DNA of 33,137 bases, from the IMG/VR virus record IMGVR_UViG_3300031576_001095, positions 1 to 33,137 of that record; one strand, written 5' to 3'. The notes under the pieces are model-generated. The model was not told the origin of the DNA and did not search any database. It saw nothing but the letters and a program-made list of their open reading frames with translations. Below are positions 3,360-19,444 of the stretch, piece by piece. The first letter of the stretch is position 1, and every line of letters starts with the position of its first letter. The position numbers and the translations under genes were made by a program. Source of the DNA: a virus.

Positions 3360-4093
3360 ACGGTCTGCCCATTGAGCTGGCTCGTATACGTCGTCCGGTG
3401 CGCCGGGTCGTTGGCGGGCAGGTTCTGCTCGTACCAGACCCCGATATTTTCGCCAGCCGCCAGCGGACTCGACGGGACTGCCTGATCGATGTTGTCGTCC
3501 ACGAACGTGATGCCCCCGGGGGCCGTCACCCGATTAGCGATTGTTGCGGTATCACCCTTCGAGGTGTGAATCCCTTGGCGGATCCGCGCGTCGGGATCGG
3601 CCGACAGCCGCACCTGGGCACTTTGCAGACCCAGCGTCGCGTGGGTATTCTTCCAATGCAACTTGTCGTACCGGATCACGATGCCTGCTTGTGAAGCACT
3701 CCGCTGGAGATGTGAGTGACGGAAGCGTTCGTTTGGTGTGATCGTTGCTCGTGTGGCCCCACCTGCTCCCTGCCTGACAGTCACGGTCCGCGCAACATCA
3801 GCGACTGCCATCGTCACCTTTAGGATCCGCTCGAAGGTCGTGGTCCCCACAACCTCAACCGCTCCGTTTAGCGTCAGCGCCTCCGTTACCACTGTCCCAG
3901 CCGCGTTGCGTCCCTCAATAGTCACCACACGAGTGTCAGCACCATCGGAGACGACCGCGATGACGCTGTTTGCAGTGAGCTGTGTAAAGGTCGGACGCCC
4001 GAGAGTGTCGATAGCTCCACCACCCGTCGTGGTGTCGTCCGTCGGGTTGTTCGCGGCGATATACGCAATCAGGTCAGCAGCTACGATGGGCAC
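3356..4093 (-). CDS. Putative phage structural protein, beta-rich, 245 aa
   Basis: A GTG start at 4093 is preceded by GGAGG at good spacing. The sequence is rich in Thr, Val and Ala with beta-strand repeats (VVTIEGRNAAGTVVTEAL, then VEVVGTTTFERILKVTM), like phage surface or decoration proteins. The C-terminal half includes HLQRSASQAGIVIRYDKLHW and ends with QLNGQTV. No catalytic motif is present. It follows the WEALQ-repeat protein in a cluster of unusual structural genes between the connector and the tail genes. I do not recognise the family; a head, neck or fibre protein is the likeliest role. Confidence 0.6.
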   Translation of the reverse strand: MPIVAADLIAYIAANNPTDDTTTGGGAIDTLGRPTFTQLTANSVIAVVSDGADTRVVTIEGRNAAGTVVTEALTLNGAVEVVGTTTFERILKVTMAVADVARTVTVRQGAGGATRATITPNERFRHSHLQRSASQAGIVIRYDKLHWKNTHATLGLQSAQVRLSADPDARIRQGIHTSKGDTATIANRVTAPGGITFVDDNIDQAVPSSPLAAGENIGVWYEQNLPANDPAHRTTYTSQLNGQTV

Positions 4094-14888: not shown

Positions 14889-14904
14889 GGTAGTGTCCTA
14901 ATTT
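14889..14904. repeat. Left terminal inverted repeat of the IS1-like transposon
   Basis: GGTAGTGTCCTAATTT, a perfect 16-bp inverted match to 17717-17732. The stop codon of the leftmost cargo gene lies inside it. Confidence 0.9.
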
Positions 14905-15410
14905 GCTTTGAGAATCTGGTCCTGGACCTGTCCGACGGTGGCTCCAGCGGGCAGCGATCGCAGTATGGTGATAAGGTCTTCGTAGACCTCGATCCTGATT
15001 TCCTCGCCACGCATGCGCTTACGACGCTGCACGATGCACAATTGTAGTTCGTCCGCCGTCATGGCCCCAATGGGCTGCCAGCGGTGCCTTCCCGCGGCGT
15101 CCTCGTAATGCTCGAAGATCCGAACTTCTACCCTGTCGTTTTTGAATTTGAACGACTTTGTTTGGCGCAGGTAGTCTCGGCCGCGTGTGGCAACGTACTC
15201 CAGAACCAATTTTTCGATCTCCCAATCCTTCGCATCGCGCTTGATTACCTGAAGGACGCCAGCCAGACCCCGGAGGCGTGTTCCGGGAATGCCCGTCCTG
15301 ACCAGGCTGACGATCTCTTTGACTTCAAAGTAGGGTTGTCTGCTGGAGAGATATTCTGCGGCGGCTTGCACATGGGCGTCTATCCGGCCATAGGCCGTCC
15401 ATTTCGCCAT
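14898..15410 (-). CDS. Transposon cargo protein of unknown function, 170 aa
   Basis: Third gene of the cargo operon. I favour the ATG at 15410 (MAKWTAYGRIDAHVQAAAEY), with GGTGG at good distance; a GTG at 15422 would add four residues. The protein looks alpha/beta, with FEVKEIVSLVRTGIPGTRL, a basic middle (RQTKSFKFKNDRVEVRIFEH) and a helical end (EDLITILRSLPAGATVGQV). I see no catalytic motif and do not recognise the family. Its stop (AAT-TAG) is inside the terminal inverted repeat, so the transposon end encodes its last residues. It follows the ParB-like gene by 34 bases and is presumably co-transcribed with it. A nucleic-acid-binding role is a guess from its charge. Confidence 0.7.
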   Translation of the reverse strand: MAKWTAYGRIDAHVQAAAEYLSSRQPYFEVKEIVSLVRTGIPGTRLRGLAGVLQVIKRDAKDWEIEKLVLEYVATRGRDYLRQTKSFKFKNDRVEVRIFEHYEDAAGRHRWQPIGAMTADELQLCIVQRRKRMRGEEIRIEVYEDLITILRSLPAGATVGQVQDQILKAN

Positions 15411-15444
15411 TTCGTGACCCACCCGGCTGTGAGTGTCATGACGT

Positions 15445-16344
15445 TCATTTTACCACGTGCGGCTTGCGGAGCGTCTTCTCAATTTCATGCAGCACGTCCT
15501 GGAGATACCGGATGACCTGAGGCAGTTCTCGGTTGAGATGATCTAGGCGCTTGCGATCTAACCCGGCTATCATCGTCGGCGCTGCCCATCGGACCCGGAC
15601 GCGGCTGAACTCCTCAAGCATACGCCAGAGGGCAATCTCCTTGTCCGACTCCTTCGCCTCCGCGACCTTACGGGCAATCGTTTCGTGGAGAATCGCAGGT
15701 TCCTTCTCCTTCGTCGTGATTGGCTCCGCGCGGCCTTTGAGTAGCGCGCTCCTGAACGACGCTGGCAAGGACTCGTCCCTGATGTTTTGGACCGCTGCCT
15801 TCGTTTCTTTGGCCGTCCACCCTTTCTCTTTGACCACATCCACAAGCACCGAGCGTTGGGCCGCTGGAGCCGCCGCGATGGCGGCCAGGTGCTCATCGGG
15901 CAACGGGGCGGCGTTCGGGACCGACCTGCGGACTTGGTCGGCACGAAGGGTCGTACCAACCGTGTCTTCGCTCAGGTTCAACACTTCGGCAATCTTCACT
16001 GCAGGCCAGTTGGGATGGAGCTGGTGAATCCGGCGGATAGCCTGCCGCTTGTCGTCACCAGTGAGGCGCTTGCCATGCTGCATATTGGCAATGGCAGCAT
16101 ACTCCAGGGCCTCGTTCCTCGTGCCCGTTCTGACCTCGGCGGCAATCTCTTTACGCCCGAGTCGCTCAGCGGCTGCGACGCGATGGAATCCGTCTGCGAG
16201 TAGTAACCCTTCTTTGTTTTTGAAGATCACAACGGGAGGCAGTTTATCGAAGGAGGCCATATACTCCTGGATAAGTTCTTCGTCGTTCCTCTCGCGGACA
16301 CTGATCGTAGGGTCCACGATGATTTCTTGCAATTTCAGCCTCAT
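15445..16344 (-). CDS. ParB/Srx-like nuclease-domain protein with HTH, transposon cargo
   Basis: 299 residues. The N-terminal ~100 residues match the ParB N-terminal domain: VDPTISVRERNDEELIQEYM, LPPVVIFKNKEGLLLADGFH and HRVAAAERLGRKEIAAEV (the G-F-H-R box that binds nucleotide in ParB-like proteins), then ALEYAAIANMQHGKRLTGDD. Residues ~100-140 (RQAIRRIHQLHPNWPAVKIA, EVLNLSEDTVGTTL) are the helix-turn-helix. The C-terminal half is long-helical and may dimerise. ParB-like proteins bind specific DNA and some act in plasmid or transposon maintenance; the role here is unknown. The ATG overlaps the XRE stop (ATGA), so the two are translationally coupled. Confidence 0.85.
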   Translation of the reverse strand: MRLKLQEIIVDPTISVRERNDEELIQEYMASFDKLPPVVIFKNKEGLLLADGFHRVAAAERLGRKEIAAEVRTGTRNEALEYAAIANMQHGKRLTGDDKRQAIRRIHQLHPNWPAVKIAEVLNLSEDTVGTTLRADQVRRSVPNAAPLPDEHLAAIAAAPAAQRSVLVDVVKEKGWTAKETKAAVQNIRDESLPASFRSALLKGRAEPITTKEKEPAILHETIARKVAEAKESDKEIALWRMLEEFSRVRVRWAAPTMIAGLDRKRLDHLNRELPQVIRYLQDVLHEIEKTLRKPHVVK

Positions 16345-16688
16345 TCAGTTCCTCCTCCAAGCAGTGTCTTTTCGTCTACGTTCAAAGCCTTGGCGAGCCG
16401 TACAACCGTGAACCAACGGGGCCGTGTCTTGCCGGTTTCCAAACGATGGATTTCACTTTCGCTGATGCCTGCCATTCCCGACAAGCGTTTCTGTGACAGC
16501 CCACGCATCATACGAATCCGCGACAGGGGCGATCCGGCGCCCAGGTGATCCCTGCGAGGTTTGGCCCACCGGGTTTGGATTGCATGTTGGGAGATCTGCT
16601 TGCGCCGCTCAGGCGTAAGTTTCGCCGTTCGCGCTAGCCCGCCCCTTCTCCCTAGCGCCACCGCCTGCGGATTCTTGTGGCTCTTCAC
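16341..16688 (-). CDS. XRE-family regulator with N-terminal basic GRxGG module, transposon cargo
   Basis: 115 residues, GTG start at 16688. Residues ~5-46 carry a distinctive basic module, KNPQAVALGRRGGLARTAKL, followed by PERRKQISQHAIQTRWAK. Residues ~52-110 are an XRE/Cro-type helix-turn-helix: LSRIRMMRGLSQKRLSGMAG, ISESEIHRLETGKTRPRW, TVVRLAKALNVDEKTLLGG. It is the first gene of the cargo operon. Its own promoter holds an 18-bp palindrome between -35 and -10, and the divergent transposase promoter holds a matching one, so the natural inference is that this protein represses both. The predicted transcription start is at or within a base or two of the GTG, which suggests a leaderless mRNA. 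Confidence 0.88.
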   Translation of the reverse strand: MKSHKNPQAVALGRRGGLARTAKLTPERRKQISQHAIQTRWAKPRRDHLGAGSPLSRIRMMRGLSQKRLSGMAGISESEIHRLETGKTRPRWFTVVRLAKALNVDEKTLLGGGTE

Positions 16689-16694
16689 GCACCT

Positions 16695-16723
16695 ACGATA
16701 CTATCGGCTTAGTATGCTGTCAA
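16695..16723 (-). promoter_or_regulatory. Promoter of the cargo operon (XRE-ParB-unknown)
   Basis: -35 TTGACA (16723-16718, perfect), 17-base spacer, -10 TATCGT (16700-16695, four of six). It points leftwards to the XRE gene, whose GTG is about where transcription should start. Operator O1 overlaps the spacer and the -10 box. Confidence 0.7.
16698..16715. promoter_or_regulatory. Operator O1, palindrome within the cargo promoter
   Basis: ATACTA, six bases (TCGGCT), TAGTAT: a perfect 6-6-6 palindrome located between the -35 and -10 boxes of the leftward promoter. Its centre is exactly 40 bp from that of O2. The site would be blocked when a regulator dimer binds. Confidence 0.72.
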
Positions 16724-16729
16724 GGACCA

Positions 16730-16758
16730 TTGACATTATACTAACCGCTTAGTATAAT
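16730..16758 (+). promoter_or_regulatory. Promoter of the transposase gene, full consensus
   Basis: -35 TTGACA (16730-16735), 17-base spacer, -10 TATAAT (16753-16758): every position matches the sigma-70 consensus. It is back to back with the cargo promoter, the two -35 boxes being six bases apart. Such a strong promoter in front of a transposase is unusual and would normally be tightly repressed. Confidence 0.82.
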
Positions 16759-16759
16759 G
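16734..16759. promoter_or_regulatory. Operator O2, palindrome within the transposase promoter
   Basis: CATTATACTA, six bases (ACCGCT), TAGTATAATG: perfect 10-bp arms. The inner 18 bases (16738-16755) match O1 in both arms, giving a shared core ATACTA-N6-TAGTAT. The site spans the spacer and -10 box of the transposase promoter, so bound protein would exclude RNA polymerase. Confidence 0.78.
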
Positions 16760-16773
16760 CTGACTAGAAGGTA

Positions 16774-16803
16774 CCTCCGACACCGCGCTAACGGTGCCGG
16801 AGG
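16774..16803 (+). promoter_or_regulatory. Strong hairpin in the transposase mRNA leader
   Basis: CCTCCG-A-CACCG, a six-base loop (CGCTAA), CGGTG-C-CGGAGG: an 11-bp GC-rich stem with one A/C mismatch. There is no U tract, so it is not a classic terminator. It lies in a leader of about 130 bases before the transposase ATG and may limit translation, especially from outside transcripts, as in other IS elements. The rest of the leader (16804-16892) holds only short weaker stems. Confidence 0.6.
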
Positions 16804-16892
16804 GGCAAGACCACACTCTAGCGGGTTAGGCCAGAGCGCGGTTGGCTGCCGCCTCCAGTATATGGCCCCCGCTGCAAAACGGGAAGGCCACC

Positions 16893-17717
16893 ATGAACAC
16901 CTTGAAGCGAGAGAAACAGCTTGCAGTCTTATCGGCCCTTCTGGAAGGCTCCAGCGTCCGAAGCATCGAGCGCATGACCGGCGTTCACCGGGATACCATC
17001 CTGCGGCTCATGAACCGCGTCGGCGAGGGATGCCAGCGGCTCATGGATACCCGTATGAAGGGCTTGCCCTGTCAGTTCGTGCAGGTCGATGAAATTTGGA
17101 CCTACGTTGGGAAGAAGCAGAAGCGGGTCAGACCGTGGGATCGCCCCGATATCGGCGATCAGTTTGTTTTCGTGGCGTTAGATGCGGATACGAAGTTGGT
17201 GCCGTGCTTTCTAGTCGGTAGGCGCGATGCGCCCAATGCTGAAACCTTCATGCTGGACCTTGCTCGCCGTATGAAAGGGAGAATCCAACTCACTACAGAC
17301 GGTTTCCGGCCCTATGTCTTGGCCGTCGAGGATGCTTTCGGAGCGAACATAGATTTCGCCCAATTGGTCAAGCTCTATCAAGCCGAAACTCCGAATGAGG
17401 CCCGTTACGCCCCGCCGCGGATCAAGTCCATCACGCCAGCGTTCATCAGTGGCGATCCTTGGCCGGAGCGTATCTCCACATCGTACGTCGAGCGCCAGAA
17501 CCTCACGATCAGGATGCAGGTTCGCAGACTCACCCGCTTGACCAATGCATTCTCCAAGAAACTTCCGAACCTGTGGAATGCTCTGGCTTTGCACTTTGCC
17601 CACTACAACTTCGTGCGGGTTCACTCGACGCTTCGCGTCGCTCCGGCCGTTGCGACGGGTCTAGAAACCTACACTTGGAACCTGGGGCAACTAATCGAGG
17701 CCGCCCTTGCCGCCTGA
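16893..17717 (+). CDS. IS1-family DDE transposase
   Basis: 274 residues in a single frame (no frameshift needed). I chose the ATG at 16893, preceded by GGAAGG. The N-terminal helix-turn-helix reads LLEGSSVRSIERMTGVHRDT with ILRLMNRVG. The catalytic triad is D66 in VQVDEIWTYVGKK, D136 in LTTDGFRPY and E200 in TSYVERQNLTIR, with the usual IS1 C-terminal motif LHFAHYNFVRVHSTLRVAPA. The protein appears complete and functional. Its TGA overlaps the first base of the right inverted repeat. Expression would come from a consensus promoter that carries an operator, so transposition is probably regulated. Confidence 0.92.
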   Translation: MNTLKREKQLAVLSALLEGSSVRSIERMTGVHRDTILRLMNRVGEGCQRLMDTRMKGLPCQFVQVDEIWTYVGKKQKRVRPWDRPDIGDQFVFVALDADTKLVPCFLVGRRDAPNAETFMLDLARRMKGRIQLTTDGFRPYVLAVEDAFGANIDFAQLVKLYQAETPNEARYAPPRIKSITPAFISGDPWPERISTSYVERQNLTIRMQVRRLTRLTNAFSKKLPNLWNALALHFAHYNFVRVHSTLRVAPAVATGLETYTWNLGQLIEAALAA

Positions 17718-17732
17718 AATTAGGACACTACC
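17717..17732. repeat. Right terminal inverted repeat of the IS1-like transposon
   Basis: AAATTAGGACACTACC, exact reverse complement of the left end at 14889-14904. Confidence 0.9.
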
Positions 17733-17740
17733 CCACGTAA
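17733..17740. repeat. Target site duplication, right copy (CCACGTAA)
   Basis: Matches 14881-14888. The next base is the first base of the inverted repeat of the older element at 17741, so insertion occurred precisely at the outer edge of a related element. Confidence 0.88.
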
Positions 17741-17759
17741 GGTAGTGGGTCAATTTGCC
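17741..17759. repeat. Inverted repeat, left end of decayed element
   Basis: GGTAGTGGGTCAATTTGCC. Its reverse complement matches 19426-19444 at 16 of 19 positions, and it begins with the same GGTAGTG as the intact transposon's ends. The remnant transposase stop codon lies inside it. Confidence 0.75.
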
Positions 17760-17884
17760 TTAGCGAGGGCTGCTGACTCCAGTAAAGCTGCGATCTCATC
17801 TACCGACCAGATGTGATCGGCAATCCCTGCGGCCATCGCCGGGGTTATTTTGATCGTTTGGTGGACTCGGCAAAAATTGTACTG
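17750..17884 (-). pseudogene. IS1-family transposase, C-terminal remnant
   Basis: Reading leftwards, an open stretch encodes QYNFCRVHQTIKITPAMAAG followed by IADHIWSVDEIAALLESAAL and AKAN-stop. This is the conserved C-terminus of IS1-family transposases (YNFxRxHxTxxxTPAMxAG...W). It aligns with YNFVRVHSTLRVAPAVATG of the intact transposase but is a different subfamily. Homology ends abruptly near 17885, only a dozen bases before the -35 box of the XRE-ImmA promoter, so the rest of the gene, including the DDE residues, has been lost. Confidence 0.85.
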
Positions 17885-17896
17885 GCTCTCCGGCCA

Positions 17897-17926
17897 TTGA
17901 CAGCAACGGACAATGGCGCTTATATT
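17897..17926 (+). promoter_or_regulatory. Promoter of the XRE-ImmA operon
   Basis: Perfect -35 TTGACA (17897-17902), 18-base spacer, -10 TATATT (17921-17926, five of six). The expected start of transcription is at about 17933-17936, where the ATG of the small leader gene lies, so the mRNA would have almost no leader. The -10 region is a small palindrome, TTATATTATAA. Confidence 0.72.
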
Positions 17927-17935
17927 ATAACCACC

Positions 17936-18013
17936 ATGAGTACAAACTCGCCAGACCCAGATACTATTGATGTTGAGGAGCGCCGCAAGGCCGACACCAA
18001 AGGCGTCGAATGA
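17936..18013 (+). CDS. Short peptide (25 aa) coupled to the XRE-ImmA gene
   Basis: MSTNSPDPDTIDVEERRKAD followed by TKGVE, an acidic peptide with no motif. Its stop overlaps the next ATG (ATGA) and it begins directly at the predicted transcription start. It may be a leader that couples translation of the regulator rather than a functional protein. A longer frame from 17813 would run back through the promoter and is rejected. Confidence 0.45.
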   Translation: MSTNSPDPDTIDVEERRKADTKGVE

Positions 18014-19131
18014 TCAGCGGGGAGCGGGTAAGGTTCGCGCGGGAATTCCGCGGCCTGACCCAAACGGACTTGGCCAGGCAGATCGGGGTTACACAGCCAG
18101 CCATCGCCCAGATTGAAGGGGGATTCAAGCAGCCATCTGGCACAGTCCTTGAAGCATTGGCCCTGAAGACAGGTTTCCCGCTGGCGTTCTTTCGACAGGC
18201 CGATCCTCCAGACTTTCCGTTGGGTTCACTGCTCTTTCGTTCTCAAGCGGCGTTTACTAGCCGCGAACGATCAAGGGTGTTTCGTTATGGGCAACTCGCC
18301 TATGAGTTGGTGGAGCGTCTATTGGCTCCGCGCGTGAAGCGACCAGCCGTTCGATTGCCCAAACTGGAAAGAGTGCCTATCAAAGACGCAGCGACCCTGA
18401 CGCGCGATGCGTTGGGTCTTCCACCGCACCAGCCTATCGCCAACCTCACAGATGCCGCCGAAAGAGCCGGCGTCCTGGTTGTCATGCTCCCGACACCCAT
18501 AGAGAAAGGCGATGCCTTTTCTGCGTGGACGGCGCTGCAAGAGCCGACACCAATGATTGCGATAGGATCGGGCACGCCTGGAGACCGCGCCCGCATGAGT
18601 ATGGCCCACGAATTGGCAGAACTGGTCTTACACCATTCCATTCGGGGGCGGCTTGACGAGATGGAGCGGGATGCCAATCGGTTTGCCGCTGAACTTCTCA
18701 TGCCAGAGGAAGCAATCCGTCAGGAAATCACACCTCCGGTCACGCTGACGCAGATCGCACGGCTCAAACCTCGCTGGAGAGTTTCAATTCAGGCTTTGGT
18801 CAGGCGCGCATACGATTTGGAGATTGTCACGCGGCGTCAGTATACCTACCTGTTCGAGCAGATCGGCGGCATGGGCTGGAGACTCAAGGAGCCGGAGAAT
18901 CTCAACATTCCAGCGGAAAGAGCGCGGGGATTGCGAAAGATGATCGAAGTCCTATATGGCAACCCTCCCAACTACACGCGCCTAGCCACCGATGCGCGAC
19001 TCACAGTCCATGTCGTGCGGAAATTCATCGAAGCGCAAGCGGAATGGCCGACCGATCGGTCAACGGACCTCGATCAAACAGATGCGGCACCAACCGTCAT
19101 TTCCATCGAATCCAGGCGCAAGATTCACTGA
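18010..19131 (+). CDS. XRE regulator fused to ImmA/IrrE-like peptidase domain, HExxH motif degenerate
   Basis: 373 residues. Residues ~5-60 are an XRE helix-turn-helix (VRFAREFRGLTQTDLARQIG, VTQPAIAQIEGGFKQPS). A middle region follows, then the ImmA/IrrE (DUF955) domain with MSMAHELAELVLHHSIRG at ~196-213 and DEMERDANRFAAELLMPEEA. In active relatives the motif is HExxH; here it reads HELAE, so the second zinc His is Glu, with HH four residues on. The typical C-terminal helical region (RWRVSIQALVRRAYDLEIVT) follows. Such proteins cleave or antagonise repressors of mobile elements and stress or toxin systems. This copy may be inactive or bind DNA only. It could also have been adopted as the phage's regulator. 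Confidence 0.88.
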   Translation: MISGERVRFAREFRGLTQTDLARQIGVTQPAIAQIEGGFKQPSGTVLEALALKTGFPLAFFRQADPPDFPLGSLLFRSQAAFTSRERSRVFRYGQLAYELVERLLAPRVKRPAVRLPKLERVPIKDAATLTRDALGLPPHQPIANLTDAAERAGVLVVMLPTPIEKGDAFSAWTALQEPTPMIAIGSGTPGDRARMSMAHELAELVLHHSIRGRLDEMERDANRFAAELLMPEEAIRQEITPPVTLTQIARLKPRWRVSIQALVRRAYDLEIVTRRQYTYLFEQIGGMGWRLKEPENLNIPAERARGLRKMIEVLYGNPPNYTRLATDARLTVHVVRKFIEAQAEWPTDRSTDLDQTDAAPTVISIESRRKIH

Positions 19132-19367
19132 ACCTGCTTCCAGCGAGCACGGGCGGCGAGTTTGGCTATCTCCCTCCGGCGTCGCGCACTCAGTTTCTTC
19201 GCCCGCGCAGGACCGCCTTTCTTGCCGCCCAACCGTCCCAGTTCGACAGCAGCCGGGTTCTTTGGCGAGGCCGGAGTTGGCTCCTCGTCGCCGGTAGCCT
19301 TTGCCACAATAGACGCAGCCAGCCGATTGATGTCTTCGGGACCACGCTTGCTTGACCGCTTTGGCAT
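19125..19367 (-). CDS. Small basic protein with GRxGG module, 80 aa
   Basis: MPKRSSKRGPEDINRLAASI starts a short helical N-terminus, then KNPAAVELGRLGGKKGGPAR and AKKLSARRRREIAKLAARAR ending WKQVQ. The C-terminal two thirds share the pattern N-P-x-A-V-x-L-G-R-x-G-G...K-L-x-x-x-R-R-x-x-I-x-x-x-A-x-x-x-RW with the N-terminus of the XRE regulator of the adjacent transposon. It is convergent with the XRE-ImmA gene and overlaps its end by 7 bases. A perfect palindrome covers its start codon. Likely a DNA- or RNA-binding partner of XRE-type regulators; function unknown. Confidence 0.78.
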   Translation of the reverse strand: MPKRSSKRGPEDINRLAASIVAKATGDEEPTPASPKNPAAVELGRLGGKKGGPARAKKLSARRRREIAKLAARARWKQVQ

Positions 19368-19382
19368 ACCTTGAGTATGCCA
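19362..19382. promoter_or_regulatory. Palindromic operator-like site over the start of the 80-aa gene
   Basis: TGGCATAC, five bases (CTTGA), GTATGCCA: perfect 8-bp arms. It covers the ATG at 19367, so a bound protein would block transcription or translation initiation of the 80-residue gene. It may be the target of the XRE-ImmA protein or of the small protein itself. It does not share sequence with O1/O2. Confidence 0.6.
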
Positions 19383-19425
19383 CGCCCGTCTATGCTTGCC
19401 TAGTCATTCCCTCCTCTTGGCCGAG

Positions 19426-19444
19426 TGGAAAATGACCCACTACC
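19426..19444. repeat. Inverted repeat, right end of decayed element
   Basis: Ends in TGACCCACTACC, matching the left end at 17741-17759 in inverted orientation with three mismatches over 19 bases. Phage early-operon DNA resumes after it. Confidence 0.68.

Follow-up and report, generated by a model that had tools for sequence, protein, structure and literature searches.

What governs a transposase gene that is preceded by a full consensus promoter is the question raised by a short divergent control region (16695-16759) in a virus-derived stretch of DNA. The stretch, called the window here, comprises all 33,137 nucleotides analyzed from IMG/VR virus record IMGVR_UViG_3300031576_001095, and to the left of the element considered below it encodes portal, terminase and major head proteins. 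The initial annotation proposed that an XRE protein represses both its own operon and the transposase through matched operators, and that this switch lies inside an insertion sequence.

The location within an insertion sequence was borne out. Both promoters and both palindromes are enclosed by a complete IS1-like element of 2844 bp (14889-17732), with 16-bp inverted ends, an 8-bp target duplication and an intact DDE transposase (Table 1). Terminal inverted repeats with an 8-10 bp target duplication are a mark of the IS1 family, and most complete relatives have ends identical to those of the window element. The transposase scored 25.5 bits against PF03400 (cut-off 24.1) and is of the IS1 type, although its NF033558 match (6e-18) reaches only 65 bits, against an equivalog cut-off of 100 bits. 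Its D, D and E residues were invariant across 12 relatives. The classical InsA/InsAB' frameshift organization is absent, the window gene being a single 274-aa ORF with the entire catalytic core, and no resolvase was seen in the element. The ParB/Noc-like protein of the leftward operon matched TIGR04285 (1e-6) and parB_part (7e-5), both under the curated cut-off, and showed 35-38% identity to plasmid ParB N-terminal proteins. No close relatives of it were found in viral contigs.

Table 1. Positions of the features of the IS1-like element and its control region in the window.
Feature	Coordinates	Strand	Basis
Left target-site duplication CCACGTAA	14881..14888		exact 8-bp match to 17733-17740
Left terminal inverted repeat GGTAGTGTCCTAATTT	14889..14904	+	16/16 vs right end
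Third gene of leftward operon, 174 aa	14898..15422	-	no family
Second gene of leftward operon, ParB/Noc-like N-terminal domain protein, 299 aa	15445..16344	-	weak profile matches
Regulator gene (GTG 16688 to 16341), GRxGG...ARW domain (~5-43) and XRE/Cro-CI HTH (~55-110); candidate repressor	16341..16688	-	profile matches, alignment
Leftward promoter TTGACA-17-TATCGT	16695..16723	-	10/12; TTGACA 16718-16723, TATCGT 16695-16700, spacer 17
Candidate operator O1, ATACTA-TCGGCT-TAGTAT (ATACTATCGGCTTAGTAT)	16698..16715		palindrome scan
Transposase promoter TTGACA-17-TATAAT	16730..16758	+	12/12; TTGACA 16730-16735, TATAAT 16753-16758, spacer 17
Candidate operator O2, ATACTA-ACCGCT-TAGTAT (ATACTAACCGCTTAGTAT)	16738..16755		extended palindrome 16734-16759
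GC-rich hairpin in transposase leader	16774..16803	+	fold of 16764-16900: -58.6 kcal/mol, z=-2.7
IS1-like DDE transposase, 274 aa	16893..17717	+	D66/D136/E200 intact; PF03400, NF033558
Right terminal inverted repeat	17717..17732	-	16/16 vs left end
Right target-site duplication CCACGTAA	17733..17740		exact 8-bp copy of left one

A promoter scan recovered the two divergent sigma-70-like promoters originally described, with perfect TTGACA boxes 6 bp apart and a full consensus on the transposase side. The 18-bp palindromes with the same arms, one per promoter, are both exact, and their centers are 40 bp apart as claimed. Their placement exactly between the -35 and -10 boxes has to be corrected: each overlaps 3 bases of its own -10 hexamer, and O2 extends to a palindrome with 11-bp arms that takes in the -10. 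The N6 cores differ, being ACCGCT in O2 and TCGGCT in O1. O1 and O2 were the sole matches to ATACTA-N6-TAGTAT in the 33 kb window, even at 2 mismatches (0.06 expected), and two copies appeared in 0/100 dinucleotide shuffles of the window. Moreover, none of 135 promoter-like sites from the window and related loci outscored O2 as a palindrome, indicating that these palindromes are not due to chance. In the predicted leftward promoter, 6 nt separate the -10 from the GTG of the regulator gene, and the regulator mRNA is thus predicted to be leaderless. The predicted 5' ends of the leftward and rightward transcripts are near 16688 and 16765, respectively. The transposase start lies about 130 nt downstream of its promoter. 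The strong GC hairpin in this leader is possibly a barrier to read-in transcription or to translation. A terminator scan gave no signal above chance.

The first gene of the leftward operon had been called an XRE regulator, which describes one part of its 115-aa product. The Cro/CI HTH domain by which such regulators are recognized is present (Pfam HTH_31, E = 7e-13, residues 57-106; HTH_3, 4e-11; above gathering scores), but residues ~5-43 form a separate domain. The first ~43 residues, KNPQAVALGRRGGLARTAKLTPERRKQISQHAIQTRWAK, make up this GRxGG...ARW domain, which we define here as GRxGGxx..AR..xLTPExRxxI...A..RW and which, as seen from alignment, alone constitutes small proteins in related elements. 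An HMM of the motif, with the window sequence included in its seed, matched the window protein at 1e-15, and no Pfam or NCBIfam family matched the domain at cut-off. The domain is sometimes annotated as 'histone H1'. An AlphaFold (AF2) single-sequence model of the regulator had an overall pLDDT of 70. Structure search with its HTH half returned C.AhdI, C.BclI, DdrO and 434 Cro, with E-values of only 3e-3 or weaker. The GRxGG domain was modeled with helices only (pLDDT 86); the model had no PDB neighbor in a structure search and points to no known DNA-binding fold. No relative of the whole XRE-fusion protein was found in viral contigs, and searches at 1e-10 of ~690 genomes chosen around loci of Acidobacteriota and Nitrospirota, run without a positive control, also returned none. 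No further XRE fusions were found among related loci. The XRE fusion and its operator are therefore a single case among the material searched.

Relatives of the transposase were collected from genomes (80 loci), viral contigs (5 and 79 loci) and plasmids (4 loci, which carry IS1 family annotation), and control regions were compared in 139 loci with a near-complete transposase. Complete elements with exact 8-bp duplications numbered 25. Their cargo was varied and included restriction-modification, GmrSD, Schlafen-AlbA_2, P63C, NYN, AAA and XRE-peptidase genes. Defence-type cargo was frequent in L003, L083, L018, L007, L017, L021, L010 and L022 (L numbers denote related loci), and examples of cargo were a Tsp45I-like restriction enzyme with its methyltransferase, a cytosine methylase with HNH and Vsr, and AAA_14/DUF4143. 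An unnamed protein of ~100 aa also recurred in the cargo. In the transposase tree the window was nearest by path to L009, where the deep branching is weakly supported; the regulator of L009 is a GRxGG protein without an XRE domain.

The initial annotation had looked to conservation of the palindromes in related elements, and counted promoters that persist without conserved palindromes as a refutation. ATACTA-N6-TAGTAT was found in no relative: it had no match in 87 loci and, as a pair, none in viral contigs. With neither the exact palindrome nor the XRE fusion in any relative, conservation of the exact pair could not be assessed. Taken literally, this outcome is the refuting one; because regulator and operator appear to change together in this family (see below), the missing conservation was not counted against the switch.

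The -35/-10 spacers of the transposase promoters were richer in palindromes than other promoter-like sites of the same loci (p = 7e-5), and an independent repeat of this test on the viral-contig loci agreed (p = 0.0026). A canonical operator, ATGCTTGA[CG]CG[CG]TCAAGCAT (counted at a score of at least 14/20), was present near -30 from the transposase gene in 25 loci, most copies lying 29-31 bases before its start. A GRxGG protein was encoded in 24/25 of these loci vs 31/102 others (p = 9e-10); the operator was recognized in the loci where it was counted, so that its enrichment is partly by construction, whereas the association with the regulator is not. A GRxGG protein without a canonical-scoring operator was present in 31 loci. 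The window scored 11/20, below the threshold, with only the O2 core ACCGCT in common, and has a matched pair of different sequence in place of the canonical operator. For canonical GRxGG proteins (e.g., those of L127 and L133), the predicted candidate target is CTTGACCGCTCAAG.

The operator sequence was also found at the regulator gene. The transposase spacer of each element, chosen regardless of palindromes, was sought in the 230 bp before the GRxGG domain of the same element. It recurred there in 20/42 loci (p <= 0.05) vs 2.1 expected, and the own spacer fitted the regulator region better than did the operators of other elements (p = 1e-5). The second copy lies at the GRxGG gene's own, apparently leaderless, promoter or at its start codon. 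In many elements it overlaps the start codon, as ATGCCT...CGCTCAAGC, which encodes M-P-x-R-S-S. The Ser codon in this overlapping repeat was TCA in 13/14 cases vs a 9% background in transposase genes (p = 6e-13), indicating that the constraint acts on DNA. The regulator -10 mostly ends 6 nt before the start codon in relatives, the same geometry as in the window, and a promoter of at least 9/12 was present at that spot in 14/49 regulator genes vs 0.5% of random ATGs; leaderless messages are therefore predicted. L127 is an almost exact architectural twin of the window, with CTTGACCGCTCAAGCA in each of its divergent promoters (at 3915 and 3970), and L037 and L041 have a similar architecture. The p values assume independent loci after removal of near-identical copies and are optimistic given shared descent; the tests were multiple and exploratory, the cleanest being the codon test and the repeat on viral contigs.

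Insertion took place beside one end of another transposon-like element in the window (17741-19444), which has related ends (GGTAGTGGGTCAATTT/AAAATGACCCACTACC). This second element contains an RmrA-like XRE-peptidase (regulator-peptidase) gene (18010-19131) and, on the minus strand, the gene of a canonical GRxGG protein (19367-19125); the sequence at the start of that gene, ATGCCAAAGCGGTCAAGCAAG, is similar to the family operator. Because it has no transposase of its own, this element may be mobilized in trans.

Other elements of the family combine other regulators with other repeats. With another DNA-binding gene divergent from the transposase, the repeats flanking the promoters are TGCATACAA for a KorA-like HTH (L007, L008, L018, L022, L023), CACGAAAAA for ribbon-helix-helix (RHH) proteins (L031, L045), TCTCATATA for a DUF6471 protein (L043) and GCAAGCAT for GRxGG-P63C proteins (L005, L024, L055). 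A significant internal repeat was present in 11/19 control regions with another DNA-binding gene divergent from the transposase vs 5/26 others (p = 0.01). L024 and L028, which have sister transposases, share neither regulator nor repeats, and regulator and operator thus appear to travel together. The leftward XRE-peptidase (XRE-M78) regulators of L090 and L091 had no matched repeats, so the scheme does not fit every divergent regulator. A search of 385 genomes of one class for further KorA-like regulators returned only the known one.

These comparisons bear on the original proposal as follows. In relatives an operator lies in the transposase promoter, a second copy lies at the regulator promoter, and the operator changes with the type of regulator, which supports the core idea of repression through matched operators. 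The anatomy of the window agrees with it; the attribution to an XRE protein specifically did not hold. We consider it likely that transposition is repressor-controlled, with the window regulator binding O1 and O2 and shutting off both its own operon and the transposase. This view is based on the element boundaries, promoters, operators and gene order, and on the way in which operators and regulators occur together and match across the family. The regulator, presumably dimeric and made from a leaderless message, would bind both operators and occlude RNA polymerase at both promoters, thus limiting expression of the transposase and of its own operon (the ParB-like gene and uncharacterized cargo). 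Upon entry into a repressor-free cell, the consensus transposase promoter would fire until repressor accumulates, as in zygotic induction. Either domain of the regulator is a candidate reader of the ATACTA arms. The association across the family and the O2 core ACCGCT, which is the family core, point to the GRxGG domain; arms unlike the family's ATGCTTGA and a site length of 18 bp, typical of Cro/CI proteins, point to the XRE domain. The best reading of the sequence comparison is that the conserved regulator of the family is the small GRxGG...ARW protein and that XRE is a local addition.

Other proteins might read the palindromes. IS1 autoregulates via its own InsA product, and the window transposase, a DDE enzyme with a possible N-terminal HTH, could likewise bind the palindromes and leave the XRE gene to govern the cargo only. 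We regard this as very unlikely: the operators do not resemble the terminal repeats (GGTAGTGTCCTAATTTG), further copies of them lie at the regulator gene, they follow the GRxGG protein and not the transposase (24/25 vs 31/102), and the close transposases of L024 and L028 have unlike operators. The idea that the conserved operator is a mere transposase site was rejected on the same GRxGG association. A host repressor, for example LexA-like, would tie transposition to host stress; sites between -35 and -10 are also typical of host repressors, and DdrO is among the structural neighbors of the HTH. However, the operator varies between elements of the family and shifts with the element's own regulator, and ATACTA-N6-TAGTAT is confined to this control region in the window and was present in no other locus scanned, which makes a host protein a highly improbable reader.

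The regulator could also be an activator, or have a dual role with activation at one promoter and repression at the other, in the manner of restriction-modification controllers. C.AhdI and C.BclI, which are among the nearest structural matches of the HTH, belong to a type that activates at low and represses at high concentration. Both window operators, on the other hand, lie across the -35 to -10 part of the core promoter, where a bound protein would repress, and with two perfect -35 boxes activation would be needless. A dual role is accordingly judged improbable, and repression at both promoters is the reading we retain.

Some relatives have a different leader. In 15 related loci, a tRNA-like cloverleaf precedes the transposase gene (L003:4879-4951, L013:4872-4944, L012:4892-4965, L087:1809-1881, L031:1588-1661(-), L045:4653-4726, L035:1332-1404, and also L010, L011, L014, L019, L083 and others). 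Its acceptor is GGGGCGC/GCGCTCC, its T-arm GGGGTTCGA..CCCC and its loop often CTTTACA, in which the anticodon is of a stop type (TTA or CTA). A covariance model built from 11 of these loci recovered 4 more, always upstream of a transposase copy. Rfam and ARAGORN gave no match on the window element, indicating that this leader is absent there, and a cloverleaf together with a GRxGG regulator match occurred only in L036 among the loci scanned. For these reasons the cloverleaf may be an alternative control module; it may also be a suppressor-like tRNA. Allo-tRNA-like pseudogenes linked to a transposon ORF have been described (PMC7609411). In L005, L015 and L027, an inverted repeat GGCTTGC...GGCAAGCC, at about -31 to -2 before the transposase gene, overlaps its ribosome-binding region, which suggests translational control in these elements.

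The proposed circuit resembles several known ones. In Tn3, tnpR and tnpA are transcribed from divergent promoters, both of which TnpR represses by binding to the intergenic region between them (PMC7157771). The window element would share this arrangement of divergent regulator and transposase promoters under one regulator; however, TnpR is a resolvase acting at res, whereas the window regulator is predicted to be a dedicated DNA-binding protein. The immunity regions of lambdoid phages and 434 (CI/Cro) offer a small Cro/CI-type HTH, operators within back-to-back promoters and a leaderless repressor message, which is known for the lambda cI message from PRM and predicted in the window. They differ in that the window has one operator per promoter, an extra GRxGG domain, a transposase as the proposed target and an element size of 2.8 kb, and in that it has a single regulator gene, where lambdoid regions have CI and Cro acting against each other on tripartite operators. 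With IS1 the element shares the DDE_Tnp_IS1 domain, inverted ends that start with GG and the short 8-bp duplication, but it has a single-ORF transposase below the NF033558 cut-off, long cargo, and an external candidate repressor in place of InsA. Controller (C) proteins such as C.AhdI are small autoregulators with the HTH fold modeled for the XRE half; they govern an endonuclease, and the window regulator is instead proposed to govern a transposase together with ParB-like cargo. Divergent repression of regulator and transposase (Tn3 TnpR) is thus known already, and phage immunity regions work alike. In the open-licence literature, no paper was found that describes such a circuit for IS1-like elements, a repressor role for the GRxGG domain or an operator that overlaps a start codon, and the circuit in this transposon family appears to be recurrent and previously unnamed.

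On balance, we lean toward the view that GRxGG...ARW proteins (50-100 aa, with no Pfam/NCBIfam model) are the dedicated autorepressors of a cross-phylum group of IS1-like transposons with varied, partly defence-type cargo. Their operator would lie in the transposase promoter spacer and at their own leaderless start, sometimes coding for the first residues. Module and operator would have been swapped repeatedly for unrelated repressors, or a tRNA-like leader used instead, and the window would represent an XRE-fused variant. A recurrent unnamed domain would thereby gain a probable function. Self-limitation in most insertion sequences is attributed to weak promoters, frameshifting or antisense RNA; in the present case a dedicated repressor apparently keeps a consensus transposase promoter down, phage-style. 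The transposon family spans many phyla and many phage-like contigs, and among its cargo are restriction-modification genes and others of defence type. Several predictions follow from the operator/regulator pairs: cells with a copy would be immune, transposition would burst on entry into a new cell, and the elements would fall into specificity classes.
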